Position numbers and translations under genes: made by a program. DNA of 64,000 nt from NCBI GenBank assembly GCA_016208485.1, contig JACQXY010000023.1, forward strand, positions 1 to 64,000, read 5' to 3'. How positions within the stretch are numbered: position 1 is the stretch's first letter; each line of letters starts with the position of its first letter. This document shows, piece by piece, positions 31,544-59,377 of this stretch. A model generated the notes under the pieces. The model saw nothing but the letters and a program-made list of their open reading frames with translations. It made no database searches and was not told the DNA's origin. Source of the stretch: Acidobacteriota bacterium (GTDB taxonomy: Bacteria; Actinomycetota; AC-67).

Positions 31544-31547
31544 GTGC

Positions 31548-32285: not shown

Positions 32286-32294
32286 GGCGGCCAC

Positions 32295-32945: not shown

Positions 32946-32955
32946 CTGTGCCCCC

Positions 32956-33627: not shown

Positions 33628-33650
33628 GTCCCGCTCTCCTTGGCTCGCAT

Positions 33651-34337: not shown

Positions 34338-34377
34338 CTTCACGTCTCCGTTTTCGATTCGGTCGCTTCGTGTCGCC

Positions 34378-35670: not shown

Positions 35671-36203
35671 CACGCCGTACCCCCCGTTCGACCGGGCTCG
35701 GCCGCGCGCACGCCCGCGCCGCACTTGCGGCAGAACAGGTCGTCGCCCGCGACCTCGGCTCCGCATCCCGGGCAGGCCCGGATCTCGAGCGATGCCCTGC
35801 GGGAGGCGATCATCCGCTCGATCTCGTGGTCGGTCGGGAGCGCCGGATGGCCGGGTCCGCCTCGCGAAACGACCGGAGAGGCGTTCGCCGGGGCCGGCTG
35901 GGCGATCGCTGCGGTCTCGACCGGCCCGGCGAACGCCGGGACCGGCCGGTCGATCGCTTGCGCGAGGGCGGCGGCCTCTGCCACATAGCGTGCGCGCAAC
36001 ATCCGGTAGTCGTCGTCGGAGAGCTTGCCGGTCGCGAAGTCCATGTCGATGTCGCGGATCTCCTCGAGCATCGCCTCCTTGCGCGAGCGGAGGGTGGGGG
36101 ATTCCTCCACCACCACCGAGCGGGGCGGCGCGAGGAACGCGCGCATGAGCAACAGGGCTACCACCGCCAGGAGCAGGAACGAAAGGACCGCCGAGACGCC
36201 CAC
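35667..36203 (-). CDS. CcmI-like protein with C-terminal zinc ribbon
   Basis: 178 aa. An N-terminal helix (~3-22) is followed by a CcmI-type coiled segment (DIDMDFATGKLSDDDYRML), then a linker and a zinc-ribbon pair CPGCGAEV and FCRKCG. CcmI presents apocytochrome c to the haem ligase; only its first helix and coiled-coil are present here, without the TPR domain. The zinc ribbon is an unusual addition. GTG 36203 lies directly after the ccmH stop. Confidence 0.75.
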   Translation of the reverse strand: MGVSAVLSFLLLAVVALLLMRAFLAPPRSVVVEESPTLRSRKEAMLEEIRDIDMDFATGKLSDDDYRMLRARYVAEAAALAQAIDRPVPAFAGPVETAAIAQPAPANASPVVSRGGPGHPALPTDHEIERMIASRRASLEIRACPGCGAEVAGDDLFCRKCGAGVRAAEPGRTGGTAW

Positions 36204-36204
36204 C

Positions 36205-36759
36205 TCACAACCCCTTCCGGATCTCTTCTTCGATCTCCGCGACGTACGCGGCGTCGACCGGCGGCGGCGCCTCGACCGGGGCGACTCGCGGGCGCCAGCG
36301 CCGCAGCGCGACGCCGACCATGAGCGCTCCGCCGGCGAGGCCGGCGAAGGGTAGCACCCACGCCGTCAGGTTGAAGCCCTTCTTCGTCGGAGAGGCGAGG
36401 ACGCGTTCTCCGTAGTCGGCGACGAACGATGCCAGGATGGCCTTCTTGTCGAGCCCCTTGTCCAGCAGATCGGCAGCCACCGCCTGCATCTTGGCGGCGA
36501 CCTCGCAGGTCATCGCCGCGCGGCACGCGGCCACGGTGAGGTTGCAGCCGCACGTGCACATGAGCCCCTTGGTCACGTCCTCGAGGCTGCCGTGAACCTG
36601 CGGGCCGTGCGTTGGGGTCATCTCCACGTCCGAATGGGCGGTGCCCGGAAACGCCATCAGCAGGGCCGGCACCAGCGCGGCGGCGGCCAGCGTCAGGGCC
36701 ACGGCCGACGCCGCGCGCCCGAGCCACTCAGGCCGGGACCCGCTCGCGCGCCGCCGCAT
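36205..36759 (-). CDS. ccmH: Cytochrome c maturation protein CcmH
   Basis: 184 aa. Signal/anchor at ~15-40, then a thiol-reductase domain with LMCTCGC at 66-72 plus Cys79, a variant of the CcmH LRCxxC site seen in non-proteobacterial homologues, and a C-terminal helix at ~128-148. It reduces apocytochrome c thiols before haem attachment, outside the membrane. ATG 36759 has the strong site AAGGAGGTGGCGG and overlaps ccmF by 32 bp. Confidence 0.88.
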   Translation of the reverse strand: MRRRASGSRPEWLGRAASAVALTLAAAALVPALLMAFPGTAHSDVEMTPTHGPQVHGSLEDVTKGLMCTCGCNLTVAACRAAMTCEVAAKMQAVAADLLDKGLDKKAILASFVADYGERVLASPTKKGFNLTAWVLPFAGLAGGALMVGVALRRWRPRVAPVEAPPPVDAAYVAEIEEEIRKGL

Positions 36760-38725
36760 CCGCCACCTCCTTCCCGGACGACTTCCGCTCCGGCCAAGCG
36801 ACCAGCAGGCCGCCGGCCATCATGATCACGCCGCCGAACCAGATCCAGAACACCGCCGGGTTCACGAGGAACGCGAACGACGCGACCCGCTTCGCCGGGT
36901 CGGCCGATTCCAGGATCACGTACAGGTCCTCCACGGGCGTTGAGCGGATCCCGACCTCGGTCGTCGGCTGCTCCTGGTTCTCGTAGGAGTTTCGCTCCGC
37001 GCGCATGCTCCCGAGGCTCGCCCCGCTGGAGGCGCGCCGGAGCGACATCTCGGCGATGGTCGATAGCCTCGTCGCCGACGCCGCCGTCCGGAGGTCGCGC
37101 AGCTCAAGGACGTACCCGCCCACTCGCGCCTTCTCGCCGACCTTGAGCGAGGCCCTGGTCTCCTGCTTGTAAGCCGTGTGGAGGGCCACTCCCACCAGGA
37201 GGACCACGACGCCGAGGTGGATGATGTAGCCGCCGTAACGGCGCGGGTTCCTCGTCGTGAGCCTGGTGACCGCGGTGCCCCAGCCCTCTCCCCGGATCCG
37301 CCGGCGCGCGCGCGCCCCTCGGTAGAACTCGCTCACGATCGTGGCCGCGACGAACGCCGAAAGGGTGAGGACGAGCAGCGGCCCGCGGCGGCTCGTGGGG
37401 GAGATCGCGGCGAGCGCGGCCAGGGTGGCAAGCGCGACGCCGAGCGGGAAGACGAAGTTCCGCCGGAGGTTCCGACCCGATGCTTTCCTCCACGCGAGCA
37501 GCGGGCAGAACCCGATCAAGCCGAGGAGAGCCACCCCCATAGGGCCGACCACGGCCTCGAAGAACGGCGGACCGACCGAGACCTTCACGCCGCGCACCGC
37601 CTCGGCGAGGAGCGGGAAGACGGTTCCCCAGAAGATCGCGAAGGCGATCGCCACGAGCAGCAGGTTGTTGAGCAGGAACGAGGCCTCCCGGGACACCACC
37701 GACTCCATGACGCCCTTGCTCCGCAGCTCGGGCAAGCGGTAGGCGATCAGCCACCCGCTGAGCAGTCCGAGCACCGCGATCGCGGCGATCAAGTACGGCC
37801 CGATGCTCGACTGGGCGAACGCGTGCACCGAGGAGACGACCCCGGATCTGGTGAGGAACGTGCCGAACAGGGCGAGGATGAAGGTGGCGACAGCGAGGAA
37901 CACGTTCCAGACCCGGAGCATCCCCTTCTTCTCCTGGATCATCACCGAGTGCAGGTATGCGGTCCCGGTGAGCCAGGGCATCAGGCTCGCGTTCTCGACC
38001 GGGTCCCATCCCCAGTAGCCGCCCCAGCCGAGCTCCACGTAGGCCCAGCGCATGCCGAAGATGATCCCGGCGGCGAGGAAGAGCCACGCCCACAGCGTCC
38101 ACTTCCGCACCGTCCTCACCCAGACGTCGCCGAGATTCCCGGTCGCGAGCGCGGCGATGCAGAACGCGAATGGGATCGTGAACCCCACGTATCCCATGTA
38201 GAGGGCGATGGGGTGGAACCACTGGCCGTAGTTCTGCAGGAGCGGGTTCAGCCCTTGCCCGTCGGCCGGTACGACGGCGAGGCGGTCGAATGGGTTGCTC
38301 ATGATCACGAGCAGCAGGGCGAAGAGCGCGATCGTCCCGCCGAGGGTCGGCACCACGTAGGCCATGAGGTCCCGGTTCCGCGCGCGGTTCTGGTGCACGA
38401 CCGCGACCGAGTAGAGCGAGAGCACCCACGCCCAGAGCAGGAGCGACCCGGGCTGGCCGGCCCAGAACGCGCCGAGGGTGTAGAAGACCGAGAGGCCGCG
38501 GCTCGAGTAGTTCGCGACGTAGGCGACGGAAAAGTCCCGGGTGAGGAACGCTCGGAACAGGATCACCGCCGCGATGGTCAGGGTGATGGCCGCCGCGCGG
38601 ACGGCGTCCTCGGCGCTCCGTATGGCGTCTTCGCGCCGGGTCCGCGCGCCGTAGAGACCCGCGGCGGCCGCCCACACGGCCGAGCCGAGCGCGAGGAGGA
38701 TCGCGAACCGGCCGAGCTCGATCAC
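36728..38725 (-). CDS. ccmF: Cytochrome c haem ligase CcmF
   Basis: 665 aa, standard length, about 14-15 helices. The WWD haem-handling motif is present (WGGYWGWDPVENASLMPW at about 233-250), and AGQPGSLLLWAW near 90 is typical. CcmF takes haem from holo-CcmE and attaches it to CxxCH on the outer face. The GTG start overlaps the ccmD stop. With 76 haem sites in the window, this gene set is essential to the island. Confidence 0.95.
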   Translation of the reverse strand: MIELGRFAILLALGSAVWAAAAGLYGARTRREDAIRSAEDAVRAAAITLTIAAVILFRAFLTRDFSVAYVANYSSRGLSVFYTLGAFWAGQPGSLLLWAWVLSLYSVAVVHQNRARNRDLMAYVVPTLGGTIALFALLLVIMSNPFDRLAVVPADGQGLNPLLQNYGQWFHPIALYMGYVGFTIPFAFCIAALATGNLGDVWVRTVRKWTLWAWLFLAAGIIFGMRWAYVELGWGGYWGWDPVENASLMPWLTGTAYLHSVMIQEKKGMLRVWNVFLAVATFILALFGTFLTRSGVVSSVHAFAQSSIGPYLIAAIAVLGLLSGWLIAYRLPELRSKGVMESVVSREASFLLNNLLLVAIAFAIFWGTVFPLLAEAVRGVKVSVGPPFFEAVVGPMGVALLGLIGFCPLLAWRKASGRNLRRNFVFPLGVALATLAALAAISPTSRRGPLLVLTLSAFVAATIVSEFYRGARARRRIRGEGWGTAVTRLTTRNPRRYGGYIIHLGVVVLLVGVALHTAYKQETRASLKVGEKARVGGYVLELRDLRTAASATRLSTIAEMSLRRASSGASLGSMRAERNSYENQEQPTTEVGIRSTPVEDLYVILESADPAKRVASFAFLVNPAVFWIWFGGVIMMAGGLLVAWPERKSSGKEVADAAARERVPA

Positions 38726-38841
38726 GGGCGGTCCCCTTCCCCGCGCGCCTCGCGCCTTCGCTTGAGCAGGATGAGGAGATAGCCCCCGTAGAGGGCGGCG
38801 CTCGCGAGGTAGGCGGCGATCACGTATCCCCAGCTCTTCAT
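38722..38841 (-). CDS. ccmD: CcmD-like small membrane protein
   Basis: 39 aa. One helix (~4-26: YVIAAYLASAALYGGYLLILL) followed by a basic tail, the size and topology of CcmD, which releases holo-CcmE from the ABC complex. It sits exactly between ccmC and ccmF, overlapping ccmC by 1 bp and ccmF by 4 bp. The longer frame to 39213 is a shadow of ccmC. Confidence 0.85.
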   Translation of the reverse strand: MKSWGYVIAAYLASAALYGGYLLILLKRRREARGEGDRP

Positions 38842-39542
38842 CACGCAGCCCCCCGAATCTCTCTCGCGCGCTGGACGTCGATCCGGATCCGAAGCAGCAG
38901 GAGGTAGAGCAAGGTGAAGGTGGCCAGGCCGAACATCAGCACGGCCAGCATCTCGCCCGGCATCTGGGGCCCCCCGCGCACGAGCACCACCGGCGCCGGG
39001 TGCAGCGCCCGCCACCACCGCACCGACAGGTAGATGATCGGCACGTCGGCGAAACCGACGATCCCGAGCACCGCCGAGAAGCGAGCGCGTCGCGCCGGAT
39101 CGGGCAGGTAGCTCCGCAGCGACAGGTACGACAGGTAGATGAGCCAGAGGATGAACACGCTCGTGAGCCTCGGGTCCCAGCTCCAGTAGACCCCCCAGGT
39201 CGGGCGCGCCCACAGCGGGCCGGTGATGAGCACGGCCGTGGTGAACACCACGCCGACCTCCGCCGAGGCCGCGGCGATCTGGTCGTAGCGCTGCTTGCCG
39301 GTCGCGAGCAGGGCGATGCTCGCGCCGAACACGACCGCGAAGGCGAGGAAGGCGACCCAGGCCGAGGGAACGTGAATGTAGAAGATCCGCTGCGGAGGGC
39401 CCTGCTCGAGGTCTTCTGGCGCCCAGGCGAGCGCGGCCCAGACGAGCAGGGCCATGGAGCCAAGCGTCGCCGGCGCGAGGAGCCGCGAGGCGCGTCCCGG
39501 GAGGCGGGCCGCCGCGGCGGCCGGACGGGTTTCGACGGTCAT
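38841..39542 (-). CDS. ccmC: Haem handling protein CcmC
   Basis: 233 aa, six helices. The WWD-type motif is visible as WGVYWSWDPRLTS (~115-127), with flanking His in FYIHVPSAW. CcmC loads haem onto CcmE outside the membrane. ATG 39542 lies one base after the ccmB stop; the upstream ATG at 39575 is inside ccmB. Confidence 0.93.
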   Translation of the reverse strand: MTVETRPAAAAARLPGRASRLLAPATLGSMALLVWAALAWAPEDLEQGPPQRIFYIHVPSAWVAFLAFAVVFGASIALLATGKQRYDQIAAASAEVGVVFTTAVLITGPLWARPTWGVYWSWDPRLTSVFILWLIYLSYLSLRSYLPDPARRARFSAVLGIVGFADVPIIYLSVRWWRALHPAPVVLVRGGPQMPGEMLAVLMFGLATFTLLYLLLLRIRIDVQRAREIRGAA

Positions 39543-39543
39543 G

Positions 39544-40224
39544 TCATTCCTCCAGCACGTACGGGAACGTGGCAAGTGCCACGAGCAGGAAGATCGCTTC
39601 GTAGGCGACGAGCAGGAGCAGCCAGGATCCCGCGGCCCCCACCGGCTTCCCGTTGAGCGCGGCCGAGGTCGCCTGAACGGAGGCGATCATCGCGGGGACC
39701 GTTACGGGGATCGCGATGAGCGGCAGGATGGCCTCGCGCGCGCGAGTTTGCACCGCCATGCCGGCCAGGAGCGTTCCGACCGTGACGAGCGCGAGCGTGC
39801 CGAGCGCCACGGCGAGGAGGAGCAGCGGCAGGCCCGCGCCGGGCTGAAGCTGCAGCAGCACGAGGAAGACCGGCAGGATCGCGATCTCGGCCGCCCCGGT
39901 GAAGGCGAGGTTCGAGATGAGCTTGCCGAGGAAGATGGCCTCGCGCGGAACCGGCGACGCGACGAGTCCCTCGATGCAGCTCTCTTCCCGCTCCTGGGCG
40001 AAGGACCGGCCCATTCCGAGGAGGCTCGCGAACAGGAAGGCCATCCACAGCATCCCCGCGGCCACTCCCTCCCTGCCCTGCCCGGAGGTCGGGAAGGCGA
40101 AGCTCGCCACCACGACCACGAGGAGCGCGAAGAGCCCGACGGCCGTCACGACGTTCTTGGTCCGCATCTCGACGCGGAGATCCTTGCTCGCAACGAGGAT
40201 TGCCGGTCGCAGCCATCCGCTCAC
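39544..40224 (-). CDS. ccmB: Haem-export ABC permease CcmB
   Basis: 226 aa, six helices. It matches CcmB: short cytoplasmic N-terminus (VASKDLRVEMRTKN), then FAQEREESCIEGLVASPV in the first loop and ILPLIAIPVTVPAMI late. GTG 40224 overlaps the ccmA stop (GTGA). With CcmA and CcmC it forms the complex that releases haem-CcmE. Confidence 0.93.
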   Translation of the reverse strand: MSGWLRPAILVASKDLRVEMRTKNVVTAVGLFALLVVVVASFAFPTSGQGREGVAAGMLWMAFLFASLLGMGRSFAQEREESCIEGLVASPVPREAIFLGKLISNLAFTGAAEIAILPVFLVLLQLQPGAGLPLLLLAVALGTLALVTVGTLLAGMAVQTRAREAILPLIAIPVTVPAMIASVQATSAALNGKPVGAAGSWLLLLVAYEAIFLLVALATFPYVLEE

Positions 40225-40958
40225 GCCCTCACCTCTCGCCGCCCGAGCAGCGGGCGGTACGTCCAGGACAGCTCTTCGGAGTCGCCTTCGATCCGGCGGT
40301 CGAGGGCGACGCGCCCGTCCTTCAGGGCCACGAGCCGCTCGGCTCCGGCGAGCGCCCGGGAGACCTCGTGGACGGTCACGATCATGGTCCGCTCGGGCGT
40401 GTGCAGCTCGAGGAGCAGCTCCTCGAGCGAGGCCGCGGCGGCCTCGTCGAGGCCCGTGTAGGGCTCGTCCATGAGGAGCACGAGCGGGGAGTGCAGGAGG
40501 GCGCGGGCGATCGCCGCGCGCTGCCGCATTCCGCGCGAGAGGGCTCGGACGGGGCGGTCGAGGCTTGCGGCCACGGTCATGCGCTCGGCGGCCGCCTCCG
40601 CGGCCTCGCCGGCCCGGGCGATCCCGAACAGCTTCGCGTGGAAGACGAGGTTCTCCCGGAGGGACAGGTCGAGGTAGAGCATGCTCTCGTGCGCGACGTA
40701 GCCGACCAGGGCCCGGAGCCCTGCGCCGGCGCGCCGCATGTCGACCCCGGCCACCGTCACCGTGCCCTCGGTCGGCGCCGCCAGTCCGGCCACCACCTTC
40801 AACATGGTGGTCTTCCCGGCGCCGTTCGGCCCCATGAGCGCGACGGAGGAGCCGTGGGGGATCTCGAGGTCGATCCCATCGAGCGCCACCTGGTAGCCGA
40901 AGGACTTGCGCACCCCCGCGAGGCGGATGCCCACGGCCGGCAGATCCCGAACGCTCAT
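40221..40958 (-). CDS. ccmA: Haem-export ABC ATPase CcmA
   Basis: 245 aa. Walker A GPNGAGKTT at about 43-51, signature LSRGMRQR, Walker B LVLLMDEP and a His switch in VTVHE. The ATG overlaps the ccmE stop (ATGA). Position between ccmE and ccmB supports assignment as CcmA over other ABC ATPases. Confidence 0.93.
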   Translation of the reverse strand: MSVRDLPAVGIRLAGVRKSFGYQVALDGIDLEIPHGSSVALMGPNGAGKTTMLKVVAGLAAPTEGTVTVAGVDMRRAGAGLRALVGYVAHESMLYLDLSLRENLVFHAKLFGIARAGEAAEAAAERMTVAASLDRPVRALSRGMRQRAAIARALLHSPLVLLMDEPYTGLDEAAAASLEELLLELHTPERTMIVTVHEVSRALAGAERLVALKDGRVALDRRIEGDSEELSWTYRPLLGRREVRA

Positions 40959-41407
40959 CCCCCCGGCTTCCGGGACTCGAACTTCGACGGGCAGCGCGCG
41001 AACAGCTTGTCGGCCCGGAAGACCCCACCCGCGTCGAGCTTCCCTTCGGCCACCGCGAGCGCTTCGTCCTTCAGCGTGTCGGGGGCGGTGCCCGCGAACA
41101 CGACGCGGATCGTGGCTCCCGCGTCGGCGACCGTGAACGTGACAAGGCCGCGCGCGGAGTCGAAGACGATGCTTCCCGGTGTGACCTTGCCCGAGAGGCG
41201 AACCTGCTCGCCGGGGGAGGCGAGGACCTCGGTCGGCGTTCGATAGTAGACGACCGAGCGCGTGAAGGCCTGAATCGAAAGGGTGAGCACCGCCGCGAGG
41301 GCGGCGAGTCCGAGGAGCGCCACCGGCAAGCGGCGGCGGGGACGCTCCAGGGGCAGGCGCGCTGCCTCGGGGCCGGACCCAGCGACGCTGTTTGTGGGAC
41401 TGTTCAC
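40955..41407 (-). CDS. ccmE: Haem chaperone CcmE, Cys variant
   Basis: About 150 aa: N-terminal anchor ~30-50 and an OB-fold (VRLSGKVTPGSIVF). The usual haem-binding His within the HxxxY motif is replaced: the sequence reads LFARCPSKFE, so CxxxF stands where HxxxY is expected. Cys-type CcmE proteins are known from archaea and sulfate reducers, usually without CcmH; here CcmH is present. The start is uncertain: GTG 41407 is used, TTG 41431 is possible, and neither has a clear site. First gene of the 11-kb minus-strand run. Confidence 0.88.
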   Translation of the reverse strand: MNSPTNSVAGSGPEAARLPLERPRRRLPVALLGLAALAAVLTLSIQAFTRSVVYYRTPTEVLASPGEQVRLSGKVTPGSIVFDSARGLVTFTVADAGATIRVVFAGTAPDTLKDEALAVAEGKLDAGGVFRADKLFARCPSKFESRKPGG

Positions 41408-41526
41408 GTCGTTGCGGCGCGCGACGCCCAACGCCGGTTCGGACTGGACGATCTCGCAGCCACCTCCTCAGTATGGATCATCCCCGCCGGGGCCGCCGGG
41501 TGCCAGGCCCACATTGCCCAACGGAG

Positions 41527-44090: not shown

Positions 44091-46502
44091 TCAGAGCCTG
44101 ACGCTTCCGTGGTAGTGGCAGGAGATGCAGGTCTTGCCCCTGTCGGAGTGCGTGCTGCTGTGACAACCCTTGCAGAAGCCCTGGAACTTGACCTTCCACT
44201 GGTCGTCGTAGGTGAACGGCGCCTGGAAACCCGTCACCGTCGTGGTCTGGCCGCCGGGAACGCCCATCGTCCCGATGCTCACGACCTGCTCCCTGAGCAT
44301 GTAGGTGTTAGAGGACCCGTGGAAATCGTGGCACGCGGTGCAGGCGAGTTCCCCGCCCTTTCCGTGGACGGAACCCGACCCGGTGAAGTACTGCGCCGCG
44401 GTGAACTTGTCGTGCGCCTTGCCGCCGGCATCGGAGGAGGTGTCGTTGGTCAGCCGGACCGTGTAGGGAACGGTGGTGCCGGCGCTCACGGGCTGGGTCG
44501 TGGTCGGGTTCACATGGCACTTGGCGCAGAACTGCGAGATGTCCTGAGCCGTGCCGGGGGCTTGAGACCTGTTCATGCCATAGGACGCCGAGTCCCAAGA
44601 AACCGCGTATTTCAGCGTGAGGTTGGTGGGATCCCCTAGCTTGGTCTTCCCCTGAGCGTAGTCGTCCGCCTGGTCCACGAGGTGGGAGTTGTGACAGGAC
44701 GCGCACTCCACCACCCGGGTTCCCCCCGCCTGCTCGGCCGAGGCGACGGGGTGGTGGAAGATGCGTATGCCGTTGCCGTCGGAGGTGCTGTAGTCGTTGG
44801 CGCCTCCGGTGAACGCGGTGTACGGGTTGCTCCCTCCCGAGGTGTTGGGGCTGGCCTGGGTGTGACAGGTGTAGCAGAGCTGCTCCTGGCCGGCTCTCGT
44901 GAGCCTCGTGTTGTCGGAGCCATGGGCGAAGTGGCAGGCGAGGCACTTGACCTCGCTCCCGGAGGCCGGCGACGGGACGTTCGGGCTGGTTTTGTGGATG
45001 CTCGACTCGTACCCCGTGTGATCCCCGAGTGGAGCCGGGAGGCTCGACCCCTGACCATGGCAGCCGTAGCAGAAGGAGGTGCCGATCGGGGAAGAGGGTG
45101 GGGAGTACCGGTAGGAGCCGCCGACGAGGACGCGGAGGAGCTTGGTGTTGCCGGTGCGAAGTCTGTGGGCCGTGTGGCAGCTCCCGCACACGAGCCGGTA
45201 CCCGTCGGTCGTGGCCGGGACGGGGTGGTAGGAGGTCCTCGTCGAGCTTCCGATGGTCCCCTCCCCGAAGTCGCTCTGGATGTCGGTGCTCGCGCCGCTC
45301 CCGTTGTGGCACTGGTAGCAGGTCTCCCTCTCGCTGGCGCGCTGGAACAGATTCGGGCCCGGGGCCTTGTGGGCCGCGTGGCAGTAGCCGCAGAGCGTGG
45401 TGCCGCTGGAGTAGCCCCCGTGGGGGTCCGTGACGGCCGCCGCCGCGAGAATCGACAGGTGCGGCAGGGCGACGGTCACGACGGAGCGGGCGGCGTCGAC
45501 CTCGGTACTCCCGAGCGGCATCCAGGTGTGGGCCGACCTGTCCCAGTACTGCCCGAACGTCGTGTCGGCCGGGTAGGAAGCGGGCAGGCGGTATCCCGGC
45601 GGGACGTCGAAGCGCATGCTGAGGCGCGCGGGCCGACGGAAGACGGTGCCCGAGGGCTCGATGCGAAACACCCGGGTTACGAGGACCCGGTTGGTGCTTG
45701 CGGACGGCGGGGAGGCGACCTGCTCGACGGTGAGCGTCTTCGGCGCCTCGAGGGAGCCCGGAGGTATCTCGAGCCTCACGGTTCCCGTCGTGGGCGCGAT
45801 CGTCCCGCCCTCGGGACCGATCGTGCGGGAGACACGCACGTTGTCACTGGAAGAAAGGGCCGACGGTGCTCCTTCGTTGCCGGAAATGTCGACGGCGCTG
45901 ACGCGGTAGAAGAAGATCGCGCGCTCGGGCGGCCGGTCCTCGAATCCCTCCACCGAAGCGCTCCCGACTCGCGAGTATGGCCCGGCGGGGGACGCGGACC
46001 GGTAGACCCGGTAGTGGGCGAGGTCGGGGGCCCGGCCCTCGGCCCACGTGAGTCGGTTGACCTCCGAGGCGACCACCCGAGGTCGCCCCGGCGGGGGCGG
46101 GGGCACCGGATCCGGGGGGCCGGGGTCGTTCCACACGGCGATGCGAAGGCTCTTGCGGACGGCCGGCGCGCTTCCGGACGCGCTGACCTCGAGGACGTAG
46201 GCACCGTCGGGGACCGGGTCGCCTTGCAGGGTTCTCCCGCGCCAGCGGAAGGTGTAGCGGCGGTCGATGTCCCGCGTGACGCGAAACACCGGGGTGGCGC
46301 CGACGTCCGCGCCGGGCCTGATGGAGAAGGTGACGATGGACGGAGACGACACCCGGACCGCGACGACGGCCCAACGGCGGAGGGCGGTGACCACCTGCCC
46401 GCTTCGGGTGTGGATCGCGACCGGAGGCGGGCCCGGACCAAGAAGCCCCCCGAGGATCAGGAGCCCCGCGCCGACCCGTCCCACTGCTCGCCCACGCATC
46501 AT
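44091..46502 (-). CDS. Secreted 11-haem cytochrome c with FlgD-like, FN3 and ZU5-like domains
   Basis: 803 aa. Signal peptide (~1-30). FlgD-type Ig-like domain (~55-125, DPVPDGAYVLEVSASG), fibronectin III domain (~145-215), ZU5-like domain (~225-350: IGPEGGTI, LEIPPGSL). Then 11 CxxCH from ~375 to the end (CGYCH, CYQCH, CGSCH, CYGCH, CLACH, CYTCH, CASCH, CAKCH, CTACH, CKGCH, CISCH), with doubled CxxCH spacing and long Ser/Thr/Gly loops. No membrane anchor at the C-terminus. Large Ig-like modules plus haems point to a cell-surface electron-transfer protein. A perfect hairpin lies 33 bp upstream. Confidence 0.9.
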   Translation of the reverse strand: MMRGRAVGRVGAGLLILGGLLGPGPPPVAIHTRSGQVVTALRRWAVVAVRVSSPSIVTFSIRPGADVGATPVFRVTRDIDRRYTFRWRGRTLQGDPVPDGAYVLEVSASGSAPAVRKSLRIAVWNDPGPPDPVPPPPPGRPRVVASEVNRLTWAEGRAPDLAHYRVYRSASPAGPYSRVGSASVEGFEDRPPERAIFFYRVSAVDISGNEGAPSALSSSDNVRVSRTIGPEGGTIAPTTGTVRLEIPPGSLEAPKTLTVEQVASPPSASTNRVLVTRVFRIEPSGTVFRRPARLSMRFDVPPGYRLPASYPADTTFGQYWDRSAHTWMPLGSTEVDAARSVVTVALPHLSILAAAAVTDPHGGYSSGTTLCGYCHAAHKAPGPNLFQRASERETCYQCHNGSGASTDIQSDFGEGTIGSSTRTSYHPVPATTDGYRLVCGSCHTAHRLRTGNTKLLRVLVGGSYRYSPPSSPIGTSFCYGCHGQGSSLPAPLGDHTGYESSIHKTSPNVPSPASGSEVKCLACHFAHGSDNTRLTRAGQEQLCYTCHTQASPNTSGGSNPYTAFTGGANDYSTSDGNGIRIFHHPVASAEQAGGTRVVECASCHNSHLVDQADDYAQGKTKLGDPTNLTLKYAVSWDSASYGMNRSQAPGTAQDISQFCAKCHVNPTTTQPVSAGTTVPYTVRLTNDTSSDAGGKAHDKFTAAQYFTGSGSVHGKGGELACTACHDFHGSSNTYMLREQVVSIGTMGVPGGQTTTVTGFQAPFTYDDQWKVKFQGFCKGCHSSTHSDRGKTCISCHYHGSVRL

Positions 46503-46581: not shown

Positions 46582-47631
46582 TTATGGCAGCGATCCGCTG
46601 GCGTGGCAGGTCGTGCACAGAGCGTCCGGGAAGTTCTGAAGGAGGTCGCTCGTGTCCGATGTGTGCGGGAAGTCCGTGCTGGTGCCGACGCCGCTGGCCG
46701 GGTTGGCGTGGCAAGCGTCGCATCCGGTCGGGTGGTTGTGCAGCGTGCCCCCGAACTCAGCCTCGTCGCTCAGCCTGCTGGGATGGCAAGTCGCGCACCA
46801 CTTCGCGCCGTCGTTGTTGTTCTGAGCCGTCTTGTAGGACTTCTTCGTCGCGCTGTGGTTCGGGTACGCCGAGAGGAGCTTGTATCCGTAGAGGGACACG
46901 TTCTGGTTCTCGGCGTCCTTGACCTGCGCGTAGTCGGTGCAACTGGCGTTGTAGCCGGCTCCCGCCGTGGGGGTCTGTCCGCTGGGGCAGAGACGCCAGG
47001 CGTCGTTCGTCCCGTCCCAGTCGAGCGTGCGGTTCTCGTACGTTCCGCCGGCGTTCTTCCAGGAGACCGTTGTCCCTTCATCGGCCAGGACCCAGCCGTT
47101 TGCGACCTTGCCGTAGTCGCCGTGGGGCGAGTGGCAGCTCGCGCAGTACAGGCCCCCCGCTCCGGCCGAGGCCGTTCCGGCGGGAGCCGCGCCTCCCGCC
47201 TTGCCGGTGATGATGATTCCCGTCTCCCCGGGGACCGAAGTCTCGCCGACTGCGTGTCCCGAGGCGGGCGTGGCCAGGTTGTAGGCCGACCTGGACGAGA
47301 CCGTGCCGGGAGTGCCCCCTCCGGGTCCACCGGCGGGGGGTGTCGTGGGAGTGCCTCCCGACCAGCCGTGGCAGGTGCGGCAGGTCGCGGTCACGCTGTC
47401 CTGCGCCATGAGGGCGTAGCCGGGGCCCGGAGCGTTGTGCACCGCGTGGCACTGTATGCAGAAGTTGCTCCCGGTTCCGTACCCCCCGTGGGGGGCTGTG
47501 TGACCGGTGATCGGGTCCGAGATCTTCGGTGGCGTGGGCCCGTCCGCCGCCAATGCCTGCGCGCCCGCCAGCAGCACGATGGCCGCCGCCAGGCACAGCA
47601 GGAGAACTCGCCTACACTGAGTTCGACTCAT
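46582..47631 (-). CDS. Exported 6-haem cytochrome c, candidate extracellular filament subunit
   Basis: 349 aa. Signal peptide 1-28 (cleavage after ALA), no other anchor. Six CxxCH sites (CIQCH at 58, CRTCH, CASCH, CATCH, CDACH, CTTCH) over ~285 residues with long low-complexity Gly/Thr/Pro loops, low haem density compared with the anchored cytochromes. The motif SNFCIQCHAVHNAPGP matches CGYCHAAHKAPGP in the 11-haem protein. A free pair of Cys (RLCPSG, NASCTDY) may form a disulfide. Size and haem number equal those of known filament cytochromes of Geobacter, but this is only a parallel. ATG 47631 has GGGAGGAG upstream. Confidence 0.88.
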   Translation of the reverse strand: MSRTQCRRVLLLCLAAAIVLLAGAQALAADGPTPPKISDPITGHTAPHGGYGTGSNFCIQCHAVHNAPGPGYALMAQDSVTATCRTCHGWSGGTPTTPPAGGPGGGTPGTVSSRSAYNLATPASGHAVGETSVPGETGIIITGKAGGAAPAGTASAGAGGLYCASCHSPHGDYGKVANGWVLADEGTTVSWKNAGGTYENRTLDWDGTNDAWRLCPSGQTPTAGAGYNASCTDYAQVKDAENQNVSLYGYKLLSAYPNHSATKKSYKTAQNNNDGAKWCATCHPSRLSDEAEFGGTLHNHPTGCDACHANPASGVGTSTDFPHTSDTSDLLQNFPDALCTTCHASGSLP

Positions 47632-47951: not shown

Positions 47952-49133
47952 TCATCGCGACGGCTTGGCCGCGCTCTTGCCCTCTCCCTCCGCGCGCCAA
48001 AGGGAGCCACGGTAGCTTGCGGCCTCCTCCGATGTGGGAGGGGGGAGAGGGCCGAGCCGGAAGAGCAGGACGCGGTTGTTCTCCCTGTCCGCGACCGCCA
48101 CCAGGCCGTCCGGCCCCAGTGCGATCCTCTCCGGGAAGTTGAACGCGTCCTCCTGCGGCCCCGCCCTCCCGAACTCCGAGAGCAGCCTTCCGTCTGACGA
48201 CAGAACCACGATGTGGCCGACCCCGGCGCACTTCTCCTGGTAGCGGAAGATGTCGACGACGTAGAGCCGGCCGTCGGAGCCGAGCGCGATGGCGCGAGGA
48301 AGCTGCCAGAACCCCACGATCTTCCCCTCGACGTCGGGGAGGCCGGAGATCCAGAGCACGCGACCTGCGGAGTCCAGGGCCATGACTCGGCGGTTCCCCG
48401 TGTCGGTCACGTAGAACCGGTCCGTCTTGGGGTCCACGACGAAGGAGTTCGGGAAGTTGAACTCCTTCAAGCCGCGGCCGCGCCACTCGGCGCCCCAGTG
48501 GGCAACGACGCGACCGTGGCGGTCGAAGAAGTAGAGTCCGTTGCCGCTCGCGACGACGACCTTGCCTTTGTGAGGCCTCGCCTCGTACGGGGAGAAGCCC
48601 TCGGAACCGAAGATGGCGGGATCCTGGTCCGCCGCCGGGAGGCGATCCAGGTACTGCCCGCCGGACGAGTAGATGAGCACCGCGCGCCCACGGTAGTCGG
48701 CGACGTACATGCGATCCGCCGCGGGGTCGGCCGTGATGCCAAACGGTGCCCACAGGCGCCCAGGTCCATTCCGCGGGCCGATCTCCCTCACCAACCGGCC
48801 TTCCGGGGTGAAGACGAGGACCCGCGAGTTGCCCGTGTCGGCCACCCACAGGTTCCCGGCCCGGTCGAAGGTCACGGCCTGCGGCTGCGAGAGCGACTGC
48901 CCCTTGGCGGATCCGAATCCGTAGATCGACCGCACGGGCTTTATCGGGCAGCCGGCCTCGGGCGCCGCGTGCCCAGGGGGCTTCGGGCTGGGCTTGAGCA
49001 GGAGGGCCAGGACGGCCGCGAGTGTCAGGGCAACGGCCGCGAGAACCCCAACCACCAGACGGAGCAGCCGCTCCGCCGGTTCCCGCCGAGGCTTCTCCCC
49101 GGCCGGCCCGTCTTCGGCGTCTCGTGTGCTCAC
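47952..49133 (-). CDS. Membrane-anchored NHL-repeat beta-propeller protein
   Basis: 393 aa. Cytoplasmic start, membrane helix at ~20-42, then six NHL repeats (for example QAVTFDRAGNLWVADTGNSRV and NSFVVDPKTDRFYVTDTGNRRV) forming a six-bladed propeller outside the membrane. Two Cys (one in EAGCPIKP, one in YQEKCAG). GTG 49133 overlaps the TPR gene stop and has GGAGAT upstream. NHL proteins are regular neighbours of multihaem cytochromes in metal-reducing bacteria. Last gene of the six-gene operon. Confidence 0.88.
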   Translation of the reverse strand: MSTRDAEDGPAGEKPRREPAERLLRLVVGVLAAVALTLAAVLALLLKPSPKPPGHAAPEAGCPIKPVRSIYGFGSAKGQSLSQPQAVTFDRAGNLWVADTGNSRVLVFTPEGRLVREIGPRNGPGRLWAPFGITADPAADRMYVADYRGRAVLIYSSGGQYLDRLPAADQDPAIFGSEGFSPYEARPHKGKVVVASGNGLYFFDRHGRVVAHWGAEWRGRGLKEFNFPNSFVVDPKTDRFYVTDTGNRRVMALDSAGRVLWISGLPDVEGKIVGFWQLPRAIALGSDGRLYVVDIFRYQEKCAGVGHIVVLSSDGRLLSEFGRAGPQEDAFNFPERIALGPDGLVAVADRENNRVLLFRLGPLPPPTSEEAASYRGSLWRAEGEGKSAAKPSR

Positions 49134-49801
49134 CGTGTATCTCCTCGGAGTCCTCGCTCCAGACGGGCGATCGCGCTCTCCACTTGCTTGTTGGAGGGAT
49201 CGTAGCGAGCGGCCTCGCGGTACTGCTCCAACGCCCCGCGCTCGTCGCCCAGAGCCTCGAGGGCTCGGGCAAGCCCGACGCGCGCGTCGATCAGGTAGGG
49301 GGAGTCGGCCACGGCCGCCTCGAACGCCTGCCGGGCCTCCCGCGCCTCGCCGCGGGCAAGCTCCAGCTCGCCGAGCGCAATGAAGGGGAGCGCCTTGGAG
49401 GATCGCGGCGCCGCCGCGCCCGCCCGCGCGAGCATCGCCGTGGCCCGCTCGGGATCCGATTCCCGGACCAGCAGCCCGAGTCGGAACAGGGCCATCCAGT
49501 TGTCCGGATTGAGCCGCAGGGCTTCCTCCAATGCCCGTCGCGCATCGGCCGTCCGGCCTGCCCCAAGCAAGGCAATTCCCAGCCCGACCCTCGCGGAATC
49601 GTCCTTCGGGTCGGTGTGCACTCGCCCCTCCCACACTTGCAGATCCCTTTCCACCTTCGAGGACGGGGCCGGCGGCACCCGGACCCTCAGCGCGACCACG
49701 GCCGCACCGAGTCCCATGACCGCGACCGCCAAGGCGACGACGAGCGCGAGAAGGCCTCGCGGCGCTCCCGCTGGGGCGTTTCCCGCCTCCGGTTCGGTCA
49801 C
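49130..49801 (-). CDS. Membrane-anchored TPR protein
   Basis: 223 aa. Helix at ~15-36, then about four TPR units (DSARVGLGIALLGAGRTADARRALEEALRLNPDNW is spread over residues ~65-100, with later YREAARYDPSNKQ). It resembles the periplasmic part of CcmI/NrfG, which bind apocytochrome C-termini, so a role in cytochrome delivery is attractive. Both ends overlap neighbours by 4 bp (GTGA). Confidence 0.85.
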   Translation of the reverse strand: MTEPEAGNAPAGAPRGLLALVVALAVAVMGLGAAVVALRVRVPPAPSSKVERDLQVWEGRVHTDPKDDSARVGLGIALLGAGRTADARRALEEALRLNPDNWMALFRLGLLVRESDPERATAMLARAGAAAPRSSKALPFIALGELELARGEAREARQAFEAAVADSPYLIDARVGLARALEALGDERGALEQYREAARYDPSNKQVESAIARLERGLRGDTR

Positions 49802-50604
49802 GCTCCCACCCGCTCCGCCCAGTCGTTCATCAGGATCACGACCTTCACGTGTTTCCTGCGCTCGGCAAGCCATGCGGCATGGGCCTGCTCCTGCTTGGAC
49901 CGCCGCAGCGAATCCTCGATGGAGGGCCGGACCTCGAAGAGCGGCCGCACCCGTCCATCTTCGGTGTAGTCGCCGGCATGGGACCGGTAGTACGCGAGGA
50001 TCTCGTCCTCCGACACCGTGACGTTCGAGGCGACGGCGAGATACACGCGTGCCCCGAGGAGCTGCAGGCGCGCGCGCCGCTCGAGCTCTGTCCGGCTCAT
50101 CCGATGCCGCTTGAGCCACCCCTCGAGTCCGCCGGCCGATCCGCGCGCCACCCCGGAAACCGCCCGGTCGAGATCCTGCCGGCTCACCGAGAGGTCCCTC
50201 CGGGACGCCTCCTCCTGGATGATGACGTCGTCCACCAGCGACTGCAGGACCCTCCGCTGCCAGTCGGGTCCGAGAGCCGCGATGCTGCTCCCGTGAACCG
50301 AAGTGAGCCCCTGCACCCTCGCCCGAGCGTCGCGGAGGAAGATGGGGACTCCGTTCGCACGCGCGATGACTGGACCGCGCCGCTCCCCACCCCACAGCCC
50401 GAGCGCGCGCGCGGTGAGCCCAAGGCCCACGACGCCCGCCGCCAGGGCGAAGGCGAGGAGCGCGACGGCCTTCCTTCCGCGCGGTCGGGAGCCCGATCGC
50501 GCCGGACCCCCCTGCTCGACCGGGGGGCTCGACGGCTGGACGGATCCGGAACCGCCGGTGTTGGGGCCGTCTCCGCCCCCCGGACCCCCCGGGCGGAGAC
50601 TCAT
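49798..50604 (-). CDS. SurA-like extracytoplasmic chaperone without PPIase domain
   Basis: 268 aa. Gly/Pro-rich cytoplasmic start, membrane helix ~42-62, then a SurA/PrsA-type helical N-domain (ARANGVPIFLRDARARV, DDVIIQEEASRRDLSVS, VSEDEILAYYRSHAGDY) at ~75-230. The parvulin isomerase domain normally following is absent; the protein ends in a long helix. It probably holds unfolded exported protein. ATG 50604 overlaps the cytochrome gene stop. SurA-like genes in cytochrome operons recall the prolyl-isomerase genes near extracellular cytochrome filaments. Confidence 0.82.
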   Translation of the reverse strand: MSLRPGGPGGGDGPNTGGSGSVQPSSPPVEQGGPARSGSRPRGRKAVALLAFALAAGVVGLGLTARALGLWGGERRGPVIARANGVPIFLRDARARVQGLTSVHGSSIAALGPDWQRRVLQSLVDDVIIQEEASRRDLSVSRQDLDRAVSGVARGSAGGLEGWLKRHRMSRTELERRARLQLLGARVYLAVASNVTVSEDEILAYYRSHAGDYTEDGRVRPLFEVRPSIEDSLRRSKQEQAHAAWLAERRKHVKVVILMNDWAERVGA

Positions 50605-51488
50605 GGTCCAGCCGCCTGCGGGAGCGGTCTTCTCCGAGGGCGGGCCGTCCCGGTGGCATGGCACCGGTCGGCACACCAAGTGCCGGTGTGACAGGAGAGG
50701 CATGTTTCCTGGCCACCTTGCCGCACGGTCGCTCCGTGGCCGGCTTGCCAACCGGGGCTGTGCCCGGAGGGGTGACACCGTTCGCACGCGTCGGCTGCAT
50801 GGCAAGGGGCGCAGACGGATCTGTCCCGCCCGCTCATCTCCCTCAGCTTGACGAGCGGCTTCGACGCCCCGGGGAAGGAGGCCGGGCGGTGGCAGGTGGC
50901 GCAGATCACCGGTCCACCGCGGGGCATTCCCAGGCTGTAGAAGTGCGGAAGAGATCCCGGGGGATGGCAGAGCTTGCACGCGCCGGCGCGATCGACCTCT
51001 TCGTGGCAGCGCCGGCACAACGCCTCCGCCGGGGGTGCCGGATCGGGGTGTTCCACATCCGTGTGGCATGCGGAACACGAGAGGCCGAGCTGCGCGTGCC
51101 GGGGGTGGTCCATGTAGGTCGTCGCGAAGCGCCGGAGGGACCCGTAGTCCGGGTGACAGGAGACGCATCGAGCGAAAGCCGAGGGCGCCTTCGGGCGGGA
51201 GGGCACAGCCCAGAGTGGCACGAAGAAGTCGCGCCACATGGTCCGGGCTGCGCCCGCGACACGACCCGGGATTCCCGGCGACCCATTCGACCCCTCCCAC
51301 ACACGGACGGCGGCTCCGACGCCCCTCGAAACCTGCCTCCCGATGCGCGAGCCCGTAGCGGGAGAAACGAGCGCCGTGACCACGAGGATTCCCTCGAGCA
51401 GCAACGCCACGAGAGCCGCGGCGACAAACCATACCACCCGCCGTGAGAGCCTTCTCCCAGCGCGCCTCGCTTGCCCGTCATCCGGCAT
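50601..51488 (-). CDS. Membrane-anchored multihaem cytochrome c (9 potential haem sites)
   Basis: 295 aa. Anchor at ~15-38, a ~60-residue spacer, then CVSCH, CSACH, CRRCH, CKLCH, CATCH, CAPCH, CERCH, CLSCH and the CX3CH-type CADRCH. ATG 51488 overlaps the upstream decaheme gene by 11 bp and its stop overlaps the SurA-like gene, so all are coupled. Close haem packing suggests a short wire on the outer membrane face or periplasm-like space. Confidence 0.88.
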   Translation of the reverse strand: MPDDGQARRAGRRLSRRVVWFVAAALVALLLEGILVVTALVSPATGSRIGRQVSRGVGAAVRVWEGSNGSPGIPGRVAGAARTMWRDFFVPLWAVPSRPKAPSAFARCVSCHPDYGSLRRFATTYMDHPRHAQLGLSCSACHTDVEHPDPAPPAEALCRRCHEEVDRAGACKLCHPPGSLPHFYSLGMPRGGPVICATCHRPASFPGASKPLVKLREMSGRDRSVCAPCHAADACERCHPSGHSPGWQAGHGATVRQGGQETCLSCHTGTWCADRCHATGTARPRRRPLPQAAGP

Positions 51489-52302
51489 GCAGGTCCTGCT
51501 CCCTGTGCACTCTGTGCCGGGCGTGACAGCCGGTGCAGTCGGCGCGCGGGTGGCAGATGCGGCAGGGCGTGGTGTTCTGCTCCGTGAGCACCCGCGGGTG
51601 TGTCGCGAGCCAGCGCGGTGGGTGGGGGATCTCCGCTCCGTGGCATCCCCGGCAGAAGCTCCGCGGATGGCAGAGGACGCACGCCTCGATTCCCTTCTCC
51701 TGCTGGACTGCGCCGTGCGCGCTGATCCACCGGGCGGGGTGAGGGAAGAACGCACGGACGTGACAGGCGGCGCAGGACTCCGGCCGGTGGCAGACGGCGC
51801 AGTTCCCGGGATCGGACGCGGCGTCCCTGCCGTGCGTCAGATCCCAACCGGCGGGGTGCGGCCGCGCCGGCGGCGGCTTCGAACCCGGATGGACCGTGTC
51901 CCCGTGGCAGTCGACGCAGGCCGAGCGGGGGCCGGGATGGCCCTTGCCGATCGGCGGGGAGGCGGTGATCCGCGCGTGGCAACGGACGCAGGCAGCGGGC
52001 TTCAGGACGCCCCCCGCGAGTTCGAGCCCCGTCCACTGCTGGATGCCCTCCCGAACCAGTGTGGGAAGGTAGGCGATCGCGCCCGGAACCCCGGGCCGTA
52101 GATGGCACGCGATGCACGGCACGGAGGCATGCACCGAGCGACCGGCGACCGCCACCACCTTCGGGTGGCAGGAGGCGCAGAACTTGGGGGAGGACACGGC
52201 CCGGTTCCAACCCGCCAGCAGGACGAACGCCTCCGCGGCGGCCAGGCCGACGAACAACGCGCGCCGGCCGAGCGGGGCGCGAGTCCTCGTCTTCCTCGCC
52301 AC
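51478..52302 (-). CDS. Membrane-anchored decaheme cytochrome c
   Basis: 274 aa. A helix at ~12-30, then ten CxxCH (CASCH, CIACH, CVRCH, CVDCH, CAVCH, CAACH, CVLCH, CRGCH, CRICH, CTGCH). The PHP-containing repeats (FFPHPARWISAH, IPHPPRWLATH) resemble those of the 30692 and 41626 proteins, pointing to common descent. GTG 52302 is preceded by GGAGGACAG. Second gene of the operon; 43 bp separate it from the first. Confidence 0.9.
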   Translation of the reverse strand: MARKTRTRAPLGRRALFVGLAAAEAFVLLAGWNRAVSSPKFCASCHPKVVAVAGRSVHASVPCIACHLRPGVPGAIAYLPTLVREGIQQWTGLELAGGVLKPAACVRCHARITASPPIGKGHPGPRSACVDCHGDTVHPGSKPPPARPHPAGWDLTHGRDAASDPGNCAVCHRPESCAACHVRAFFPHPARWISAHGAVQQEKGIEACVLCHPRSFCRGCHGAEIPHPPRWLATHPRVLTEQNTTPCRICHPRADCTGCHARHRVHREQDLHAG

Positions 52303-52345
52303 TCCTGTCCTCCGTTCGCACCGGGCGCGACGAAGGGAGGCTTGC

Positions 52346-53497
52346 CTACGGCCCGCGCGAGGGCGCGAGTCCACGCCCTGCCGTCCTCGTCCCCAACTGG
52401 GGCAGCCGGAGCGGTTCCCAGTACGGGGTCTGCGGGTCATGCCCCGAGAGGTGGCAGTTCCAGCAGGAGGCGTTCTGGAGCGAGGTCGACCCGTGGCAGT
52501 AGTTGCACACCAGCACGCGTTTCTGGAAGTTCTCCGGGTCGGCGAGGGGCTGCTCGGCCGTCCTGAGGGGGATGTGAGTGAGGTGCTTGCTCGTGGCGTT
52601 CACCGCCGGATCCGCGAAGATCTTGAAGTCGTGGCACGCGATGCAGCTCTTGATAGCTCCGTGCACCTTCGGGTCGTGACAGCCGGCGCACCCCTTCTCC
52701 TGGAAGATCCCCCGGTGCGCGGTCTTACTGCCGGCGAGGAGCTCCCCCGCCCGGATGGTGCCGCGATAGGTAGTCTGCTCCGGGTCCCCGGAGGCGTTGG
52801 TGAACCCCGCCTGACTGACCTCGCCGTCCACCCACGCGTGGCACCCCTCTCCGCAGTTCACGCCCGGCTTTGTTGGGTCGGCGCCGGACGGGTAGGCAAG
52901 CCGCTCGGCCCACTCGTGGGGGCGCAGGACTCCCTCGGTGCCATCCTGCCAACGGGGACCCAGCTCGGAGTGGCAGAAGACGCAGGTCCCGTCGTTCGGC
53001 CCAGGGTTGTGGCAGTCGAAGCAGCGCCCGAGGCTGGCATCCGAGTGGACTCCCCGGCTTTTCCACTCGCCTTTGCCCGCGCCCTTCTCCGACATCCAGG
53101 CCCGCTGGCTCACGACCGGCCCGGCAGAAGCCAGACTTGTGTGGCAGCCTCCGAACGCCGCGGAGGCGCAAGCTTTGTAGGGATAGTAGCCGTGCTCCAC
53201 GGCGCTCGGGCTCTGCACGGGGGCGGGCGCGGCGACCGTCGCGCCGGCGAGCCGGCCGTCCAGAGCGCGCCAGCGGTTGACGGCGAGACCGGCCAGGGTG
53301 GGCACCACGATCAGTAGAGCGACGAGCGCCGCCCACGTGGCTGCGGTGGCCAGCAGCCGTCTCGTCCTCTTCTTCACGGAGGCATCCGCCCGGTCTCCCC
53401 GCTTTCGGGACTCCTCAAAGATCGCATCTTGCCACCACTTATCCGATTCCTCAAGATACCGTGTGGTCGGATGGTGGATTCCAAGCGGTGGAGACAC
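52346..53497 (-). CDS. Multihaem cytochrome c with non-standard haem sites, paralogue of the 41626 protein
   Basis: 383 aa. A basic N-terminus and helix at ~50-72 anchor it. Six CxxCH (CFDCH, CVFCH, CAGCH, CIACH, CNYCH, CWNCH), one CX3CH (CGEGCH) and one CX7CH (Cys110 to Cys118-His119). From ~120 to the end it aligns with the C-terminal half of the 15-haem protein (DPEQTTYRGTI, LLAGS, NASCWNCHLSGH, PYW). The GTG start follows AGGAGAAT at short spacing, so the start is fairly uncertain. First gene of the operon, divergent from the acyl-CoA ligase. Confidence 0.87.
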   Translation of the reverse strand: MSPPLGIHHPTTRYLEESDKWWQDAIFEESRKRGDRADASVKKRTRRLLATAATWAALVALLIVVPTLAGLAVNRWRALDGRLAGATVAAPAPVQSPSAVEHGYYPYKACASAAFGGCHTSLASAGPVVSQRAWMSEKGAGKGEWKSRGVHSDASLGRCFDCHNPGPNDGTCVFCHSELGPRWQDGTEGVLRPHEWAERLAYPSGADPTKPGVNCGEGCHAWVDGEVSQAGFTNASGDPEQTTYRGTIRAGELLAGSKTAHRGIFQEKGCAGCHDPKVHGAIKSCIACHDFKIFADPAVNATSKHLTHIPLRTAEQPLADPENFQKRVLVCNYCHGSTSLQNASCWNCHLSGHDPQTPYWEPLRLPQLGTRTAGRGLAPSRGP

Positions 53498-58845: not shown

Positions 58846-58922
58846 CGGCGCTCCTTTCCACCGAGGGATTGCGCGAGCGGCGGTCATTTCAGCACGCGCC
58901 GGGTGAGCGCACAACAACCGGT

Positions 58923-59147
58923 TCAATCGGGAGCGACGAGGATCTCCTCGGCGATCCCTCGCTCGACCGAGATCTCGGAGAACCCGATGCGCAGCACGAA
59001 GGCCGGCCGAACCTGCTGAAGCGTGAGGCGCCGCCCCGGCACGACGCCGAGGACGGTGAGACGGGCCAGGCGCGACCGCGCGCGGGAGGCCACGGCGACC
59101 ACGACCGCGGAGCGCCCCGGCGCGAGATCGCTCAGGCGCACGCTCAC
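58923..59147 (-). CDS. feoA: FeoA-like SH3-domain protein
   Basis: 74 aa, the size of FeoA, which binds FeoB and is needed for Fe(II) uptake. It shows the SH3-like pattern: LSDLAPGRSAVV start, LTVLGVVPGRRLTL centre, terminal ISVERGIAEEILV. GTG 59147 overlaps the preceding stop (GTGA) and has AAGGAGG upstream. Longer frame to 59327 is a shadow. Confidence 0.88.
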   Translation of the reverse strand: MSVRLSDLAPGRSAVVVAVASRARSRLARLTVLGVVPGRRLTLQQVRPAFVLRIGFSEISVERGIAEEILVAPD

Positions 59148-59377
59148 CCGGCGGCCTCCTTCCCGGCGCGGCGGCCGGCGGTCCGCGCGCGGCGGCCCGG
59201 GAGCCGCGCGCCCAGGCGATCGATGCGGGCGGCGAGCCTCGACCTCGACTCGTCGACGGTCTGGTAGCCGCACCTCGGGCAGCACACGACGGCGCAACCG
59301 CCGGCGACCGGGCAGGATCCCCGGCACCCGGACGCGGCCGGGTCGAAGGAGAGCCCGCAGAGGGCGCAGCGGCTCAT
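59144..59377 (-). CDS. Small Cys-rich protein between feoB and feoA
   Basis: 77 aa. Eight Cys in the first 36 residues: CALC (4-7), CRGSC (18-22), Cys28, and CCPRC (32-36), then a basic helix. The pattern suits a zinc ribbon or an iron-sulfur site. It overlaps both feoB and feoA by 4 bp. It may play the part of FeoC, a small cytoplasmic regulator of FeoB that can carry Fe-S, but no sequence relation is visible. Confidence 0.78.
   Translation of the reverse strand: MSRCALCGLSFDPAASGCRGSCPVAGGCAVVCCPRCGYQTVDESRSRLAARIDRLGARLPGRRARTAGRRAGKEAAG

Follow-up and report, generated by a model that had tools for sequence, protein, structure and literature searches.

Here we report a gene pair, encoding a TPR protein and an NHL beta-propeller, whose linkage to OmcS-like six-haem cytochromes holds across many lineages, and which in one actinobacterial genome ends an operon that also encodes a SurA-like protein without an isomerase domain. 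The operon lies in a 64,000-nucleotide stretch (hereafter the window) of assembly GCA_016208485.1, contig JACQXY010000023.1, deposited as an Acidobacteriota bacterium and placed by GTDB in the Actinomycetota (AC-67).

Re-calling the genes from sequence gave six contiguous genes at 53497-47952 on the minus strand, in the order cytA-cytB-cytC-SurA-like-TPR-NHL (Table 1). The first-pass annotation of this DNA had described six same-strand genes with tight joins, and this description stands: four of the five joins overlap, by 11 nt at cytB/cytC and by 4 nt (ATGA or GTGA) at the remaining three, and cytA and cytB are separated by a 43 bp gap. Its count of 27 potential haem sites in the three anchored cytochromes is reduced to 26 (24 CXXCH and two CXXXCH motifs), the 27th requiring an additional CX7CH in cytA that is doubtful as a haem site. 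All six operon proteins have a single N-terminal hydrophobic segment (mean hydropathy 1.65-2.8), and the charge rule places the C-termini of the cytochromes, the SurA-like protein and the NHL protein outside. The same annotation had the last three proteins anchored with their domains outside; the anchor, one transmembrane (TM) segment each, is found in all three, and the orientation is upheld for the SurA-like and NHL proteins, with the TPR protein ambiguous.

Operon proteins were scanned against Pfam with family cut-offs applied and matches at E 0.1 also inspected. The operon scan found no promoter-like site, a sigma-70 scan being weak evidence at 70% GC, and the one terminator-like site (46463-46447) is weak and scores below the shuffled mean, which is uninformative at this GC content. 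Omp85 had no match in the source genome and was positive in 7 of 14 control genomes, a result consistent with a monoderm envelope.

Table 1. Positions of the operon genes and of the cytochrome and haem ligation genes that accompany them in the window (TM, transmembrane; aa, amino acids).
Feature	Position	Strand	Description
cytA	52346..53497	-	GTG start; 383 aa; TM-anchored multihaem cytochrome; 6 CXXCH + 1 CXXXCH
cytB	51478..52302	-	GTG start with Shine-Dalgarno; 274 aa; TM-anchored decahaem cytochrome; 10 CXXCH
cytC	50601..51488	-	ATG start with Shine-Dalgarno; 295 aa; TM-anchored cytochrome; 8 CXXCH + 1 CXXXCH
SurA-like	49798..50604	-	268 aa; chaperone core with N-terminal TM anchor; isomerase domain absent
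TPR protein	49130..49801	-	223 aa; single N-terminal TM
NHL beta-propeller	47952..49133	-	393 aa; single N-terminal TM; PF01436 86 bits
Six-haem cytochrome, OmcS/CwcA type	46582..47631	-	349 aa; secreted; 6 CXXCH; candidate filament subunit
11-haem cytochrome	44091..46502	-	803 aa; secreted; ZU5-like region; Paired_CXXCH_1 78.9 bits, ZU5 24.9 bits
System I cytochrome c maturation cluster	35667..41431	-	CcmE, ABC protein, CcmB-like, CcmC-like, CcmF, CcmH, short zinc-ribbon protein

Linkage of the TPR-NHL pair to six-haem cytochromes

Orthologues of the NHL protein are present in 12 of 119 relatives (own genome excluded), and in the loci examined a TPR orthologue lies directly upstream, sometimes with one gene between, and cytochrome genes are nearby. 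A scan with the NHL alignment yielded 80 named loci, which come from Actinomycetota (Aquicultor, Coriobacteriia and metagenome-assembled genomes (MAGs) labelled Thermoleophilia) and also from Thermincola, a Thermaerobacter-labelled MAG, Chloroflexi, Nitrospirae, Acidobacteria and Deltaproteobacteria. The TPR-NHL pair is thus not confined to Actinobacteria, being present in Thermincola and in Chloroflexi MAGs as well.

Close orthologues, defined as genes matching the NHL profile below 1e-60, number 66. A TPR gene lies at most two genes upstream of 56 of them; within 3 kb, 54 have a cytochrome carrying four or more haems and 48 have a relative of the six-haem protein. Several of the loci without linkage lie at contig ends. 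Conversely, an NHL orthologue was found within 3.5 kb of 31 of the 42 best six-haem genes. In 40 of 397 actinobacterial genomes the NHL and six-haem families are both present; one family without the other was seen in 2 and 4 genomes, and 351 have neither (Fisher 8e-48, for genomes that are not independent); 17 of the 19 families having either one have both. The profiles were built from members of the group, so that E-values overstate independence, with the linkage counts unaffected. Homologues mostly unlinked to cytochromes, the outcome that the first-pass annotation had named as contrary to its proposal, were thus not what we found, and its claim that the SurA, TPR and NHL genes travel with multihaem cytochromes is very strongly supported for the TPR and NHL genes, the isomerase-less SurA doing so in three genomes of two families. 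The window fits a module defined by a TPR gene directly upstream of NHL and an OmcS-like six- or seven-haem cytochrome nearby, in which the six-haem gene frequently follows NHL by ∼100-500 bp. No NHL, TPR or six-haem orthologue was found in the same-family genomes G001-G004, the source class being sampled by five genomes only, all of one family.

In the window, the six-haem gene starts 320 bp past NHL on the same strand, and the 11-haem gene comes next. A profile of the six-haem family (A3, 32 members) compared against the PDB returned OmcS first (8.4e-17) and OmcE second (1e-10). A control profile built from the decahaem cytB family (A6) gave NrfH as its top match (3e-12), with OmcS not listed at E<0.01, and the match of the six-haem family to OmcS is therefore not merely one of haem motifs. 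The family profile was needed for this result, as a PDB search with the single six-haem sequence matched no cytochrome filament. As candidates for bis-His haem ligation, five histidines outside the CXXCH motifs are kept in 97-100% of the 32 homologues; a sixth is not positionally conserved. We consider the downstream six-haem protein, and not the anchored cytA-C, the likely filament cytochrome of the module.

The cytB protein belongs to a quinol-dehydrogenase-like family; besides the profile result it matches the NrfH model itself at 1.2e-6, under that model's cut-off. For cytA (TM at 55-73) a Cytochrome_C7 match of 2.4e-5 falls slightly below the cut-off, and no homologue was seen among the neighbouring loci compared.

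Several further genes recur around the TPR-NHL pair. Aquicultor-type loci (e.g. L037:7459-9495) carry an O-antigen-ligase-like membrane protein fused to TPRs immediately upstream of the pair; a ∼180-aa lipoprotein-like protein with no Pfam match recurs in the module at L033:8360-8911 and about 18 other loci; and a gene resembling the Rex redox repressor in sequence adjoins the TPR-NHL-cytochrome module in L106 and 11 other loci.

A SurA-like protein without an isomerase domain

The SurA-like protein scores 28.4 bits against SurA_N_3 (PF13624), barely over the cut-off of 27.2, and has no Rotamase match over cut-off; the isomerase region is a gap in the alignment and none is present in the predicted structure. 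The AlphaFold2 (AF2) model averages pLDDT 80, with most blocks averaging >90 from residue 80 onward; it consists of a TM helix at 45-66 and an all-helical SurA core, and a Foldseek comparison of this model with the PDB returned extended SurA as the top folds (E 6.5e-6). Domain match, missing Rotamase and modelled fold all agree with the original description of a SurA-like chaperone lacking its isomerase. Because the parvulin (peptidyl-prolyl isomerase) domain required of SurA/PrsA is missing, we place the protein only as SurA-like and not as a full member of that family.

As a lone query the protein gave only distant PrsA-type matches in 120 relatives and nothing in a wider search of genome contigs, and a scan of viral contigs found no SurA relative. 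The possibility that the gene is a mere local extra was dropped once L187, a locus of a genome from another family (G127) found via the TPR query, showed the same gene order. There cytB-cytC-surA-tpr-nhl is kept, with ATGA overlaps flanking surA (its open reading frame located by tblastn) on both sides, at identities of 49.6% for cytB, 46% for cytC, 38% for the isomerase-free SurA, and 50% each for TPR and NHL. A second species of the same genus (G277, locus L205) has cytB-cytC-surA at 64%, 48% and 46% identity, so that cytC immediately precedes the SurA-like gene in both. An isomerase-free SurA gene beside cytB-cytC is found in these three genomes of two families, the full five-gene order in one other genome (L187), and a tail MxDW..R is common to all three proteins.

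A separate housekeeping SurA/PrsA with an isomerase domain is encoded on another contig of the same genome, adjoining a large mfd-like gene, and the operon copy is therefore, judged from its sequence, an additional, conserved, isomerase-free form. This bears on the idea that the three proteins provide general envelope quality control and adjoin the cytochromes by chance. The SurA, TPR and NHL domains are indeed common and versatile, but with an isomerase-bearing SurA/PrsA elsewhere in the genome and a measured co-occurrence with the six-haem family of 40/42 and 40/44, we regard it as very improbable.

SurA genes also occur near NHL and cytochromes in Nitrospirae, Acidobacteria and the Thermaerobacter-labelled MAG, and those scanned there carry the full SurA-type isomerase domain. 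Near cytochromes, the last of these (L099:4625-11097) carries TPR-NHL-SurA plus a further NHL-SurA pair; the isomerase domain is present in the SurA protein that was scanned. In G277, a gene similar in sequence to protoporphyrinogen oxidase (L205:1254-2642) is convergent with the SurA-like gene.

Haem ligation and a proposed role in export and assembly

The last three genes are co-directional and translationally coupled with cytochrome genes, each of their products has a soluble domain and a single TM segment, and the TPR and NHL genes are linked as described above. From this context we infer a role in export and assembly, and consider it very probable that the three proteins assist in producing and assembling the cytochromes. 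In the reading that we favour they would form a membrane-tethered holdase-scaffold, in the layout of PpiD-YfgM, that receives apocytochromes after export and hands them on for haem ligation and assembly; to this reading we assign a roughly even probability. The SurA-like core would bind unfolded apocytochromes emerging from the Sec channel, the TPR domain would bind the SurA-like core in the way that YfgM binds PpiD through its TPR, and docking of cytochromes or haem-ligation proteins would fall to the NHL propeller. The apocytochrome chain would be held open until Ccm (Ccs in relatives) attaches haems at CXXCH, and the finished secreted six-haem subunit would then be released, polymerise through the cell wall and take electrons from the anchored cytA-C. 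More tentatively, and in our estimate with a good deal less probability, the SurA core, TPR and NHL proteins may constitute a dedicated monoderm nanowire-biogenesis complex that couples Sec export, haem ligation and filament assembly, with the isomerase-free PpiD-like holdase as substrate receptor.

The model for this arrangement is E. coli, where YfgM, through its TPR domain, binds the NC domain of PpiD at SecYEG and stimulates translocation, both proteins being single-TM (PMC9643414). The window resembles PpiD-YfgM (8zht) in a tethered SurA-type NC domain and a tethered TPR protein, encoded by adjacent genes; it differs in that the SurA-like protein is the NC core only, without parvulin or extra domains, and in that the TPR protein falls outside the YfgM Pfam family. 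Because PF09976 is absent and the parvulin domain missing, we propose a PpiD-YfgM-like way of working and not membership of that system.

Several observations weigh against the export and assembly role. The TPR protein matches TPR_19 (PF14559) at 52 bits; PF09976, the YfgM family, is not among the 18 families matched at E 0.1, and the charge rule leaves the orientation of the TPR protein ambiguous. A SurA hidden Markov model match is present in the loci of just 2 of the 66 NHL orthologues, both in one MAG, and since most such modules are without a SurA gene, SurA is not essential to the TPR-NHL module. In G127 the six-haem gene (L189) and the trio (L187) are on different contigs. For the six-haem protein the AF2 monomer has low confidence (pLDDT 51), so that the proposed filament formation rests on sequence.

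Haem ligation genes stand close to the operon. The window contains a System I cluster on the same strand, 7-13 kb distant, in which CcmE, CcmF, CcmH and the zinc ribbon are named from Pfam and the others from position and sequence. At locus L052 of a relative, the NHL gene (58% identical over the portion present on the contig) shares 4 nt with the gene of an ABC protein, which by position is ccmA; after it come ccmB, ccmC, ccmE, ccmF and ccmH. CcsA-like clusters recur in 11 loci and ResB-like clusters in 10, both so named from sequence.

This proximity raises the question of whether the TPR protein replaces CcmI as the apocytochrome-binding subunit of System I, with the SurA-like and NHL proteins as partners. 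It shares the TM and TPR layout of CcmI, the window cluster has CcmH and CcmF with only a short zinc-ribbon protein at the CcmI place, and NHL is coupled to ccm genes in L052; its score against PF23914 (CcmH/CycH TPR) is 38 bits, near the cut-off of 42. That score is nevertheless below the cut-off and is exceeded by those of generic TPR models, and orthologues are also neighbours of CcsA/ResB-like genes of System II, in which CcmI plays no part, so that we find the replacement improbable.

A structural scaffold, with the TPR, NHL and SurA-core proteins as permanent parts of the conduit keeping the anchored cytochromes and the wire base in register, seems to us somewhat unlikely. TPR and NHL domains typically mediate interactions, the six-haem gene is often found a short way behind NHL, and orientation or complex-assembly roles have been proposed for Dethiobacter (PMC10376724). 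However, the SurA chaperone core has the fold of a holdase, and the NHL-ccmA translational coupling, together with the recurring CcsA/ResB-like genes, points to maturation.

Neighbouring genes and relation to known systems

The 11-haem cytochrome that follows the six-haem gene has an orthologue at L189 that is 49.8% identical. Within the ccm cluster, the protein at the expected CcmI place is a short TM zinc-ribbon protein (35667-36203), and a 13-CXXCH cytochrome (41626-43044, plus strand) is divergent from the cluster. Further away, 30692-34400 encodes Rieske/cytochrome b-like proteins, a 10-haem cytochrome and a NapC-like 6-haem cytochrome, and the cytochrome b C-terminal protein also bears a c-type domain. 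Near the operon lies a gene for a large secreted subtilase with TIG and peptidoglycan-binding domains (55351-58926), for which an OzpA-like role was considered and set aside, no OmcZ-type cytochrome having been seen, though none was specifically sought. Adjoining it are a gene for a putative FeoB-like GTPase, so named from sequence, and, behind that gene and on its strand, two small genes (58923-61188).

The occurrence of NHL and TPR genes beside Gram-positive cytochrome clusters is already known: clusters for extracellular electron transfer cytochromes in Dethiobacter alkaliphilus, a Gram-positive-type anaerobe, combine multihaem cytochrome genes with genes for NHL and TPR proteins, for which a role in secretion, orientation or assembly has been suggested, and the sections of that report considered here differ from the present findings in describing no SurA-like gene, no gene order and no phylogeny-wide linkage (PMC10376724). 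NHL genes are also drawn in cytochrome clusters of Desulfovibrio ferrophilus (PMC9769857), and in Anaerosomatales the clusters include a Rex-type regulator along with genes for cytochrome c biogenesis (PMC9686372). The nearest described protein to the six-haem cytochrome is CwcA of Thermincola ferriacetica (Tfer_0075), for which a model based on OmcS shows a stack or wire through peptidoglycan (PMC7911101). CwcA and Geobacter OmcS (6EF8) likewise have six haems, but in the literature compared no SurA-TPR-NHL operon is described with them, and the filament status of the window protein is a prediction from sequence only. With SurA/PrsA the SurA-like protein shares the SurA_N_3 domain and the core fold, and it differs in its missing isomerase domain, its TM anchor and its conserved tail. 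Relative to the same literature, the quantified linkage of TPR-NHL to OmcS-like cytochromes, the operon-conserved isomerase-free SurA core and the NHL-ccmA overlap are new.

No dedicated assembly factors are established for OmcS-type cytochrome wires in the literature compared. The TPR-NHL pair, which accompanies the six-haem family across Actinomycetota and is coupled at some loci to haem-ligation genes, provides named candidate assembly genes, and a SurA core gene adjoining the TPR gene provides a specific predicted protein contact.

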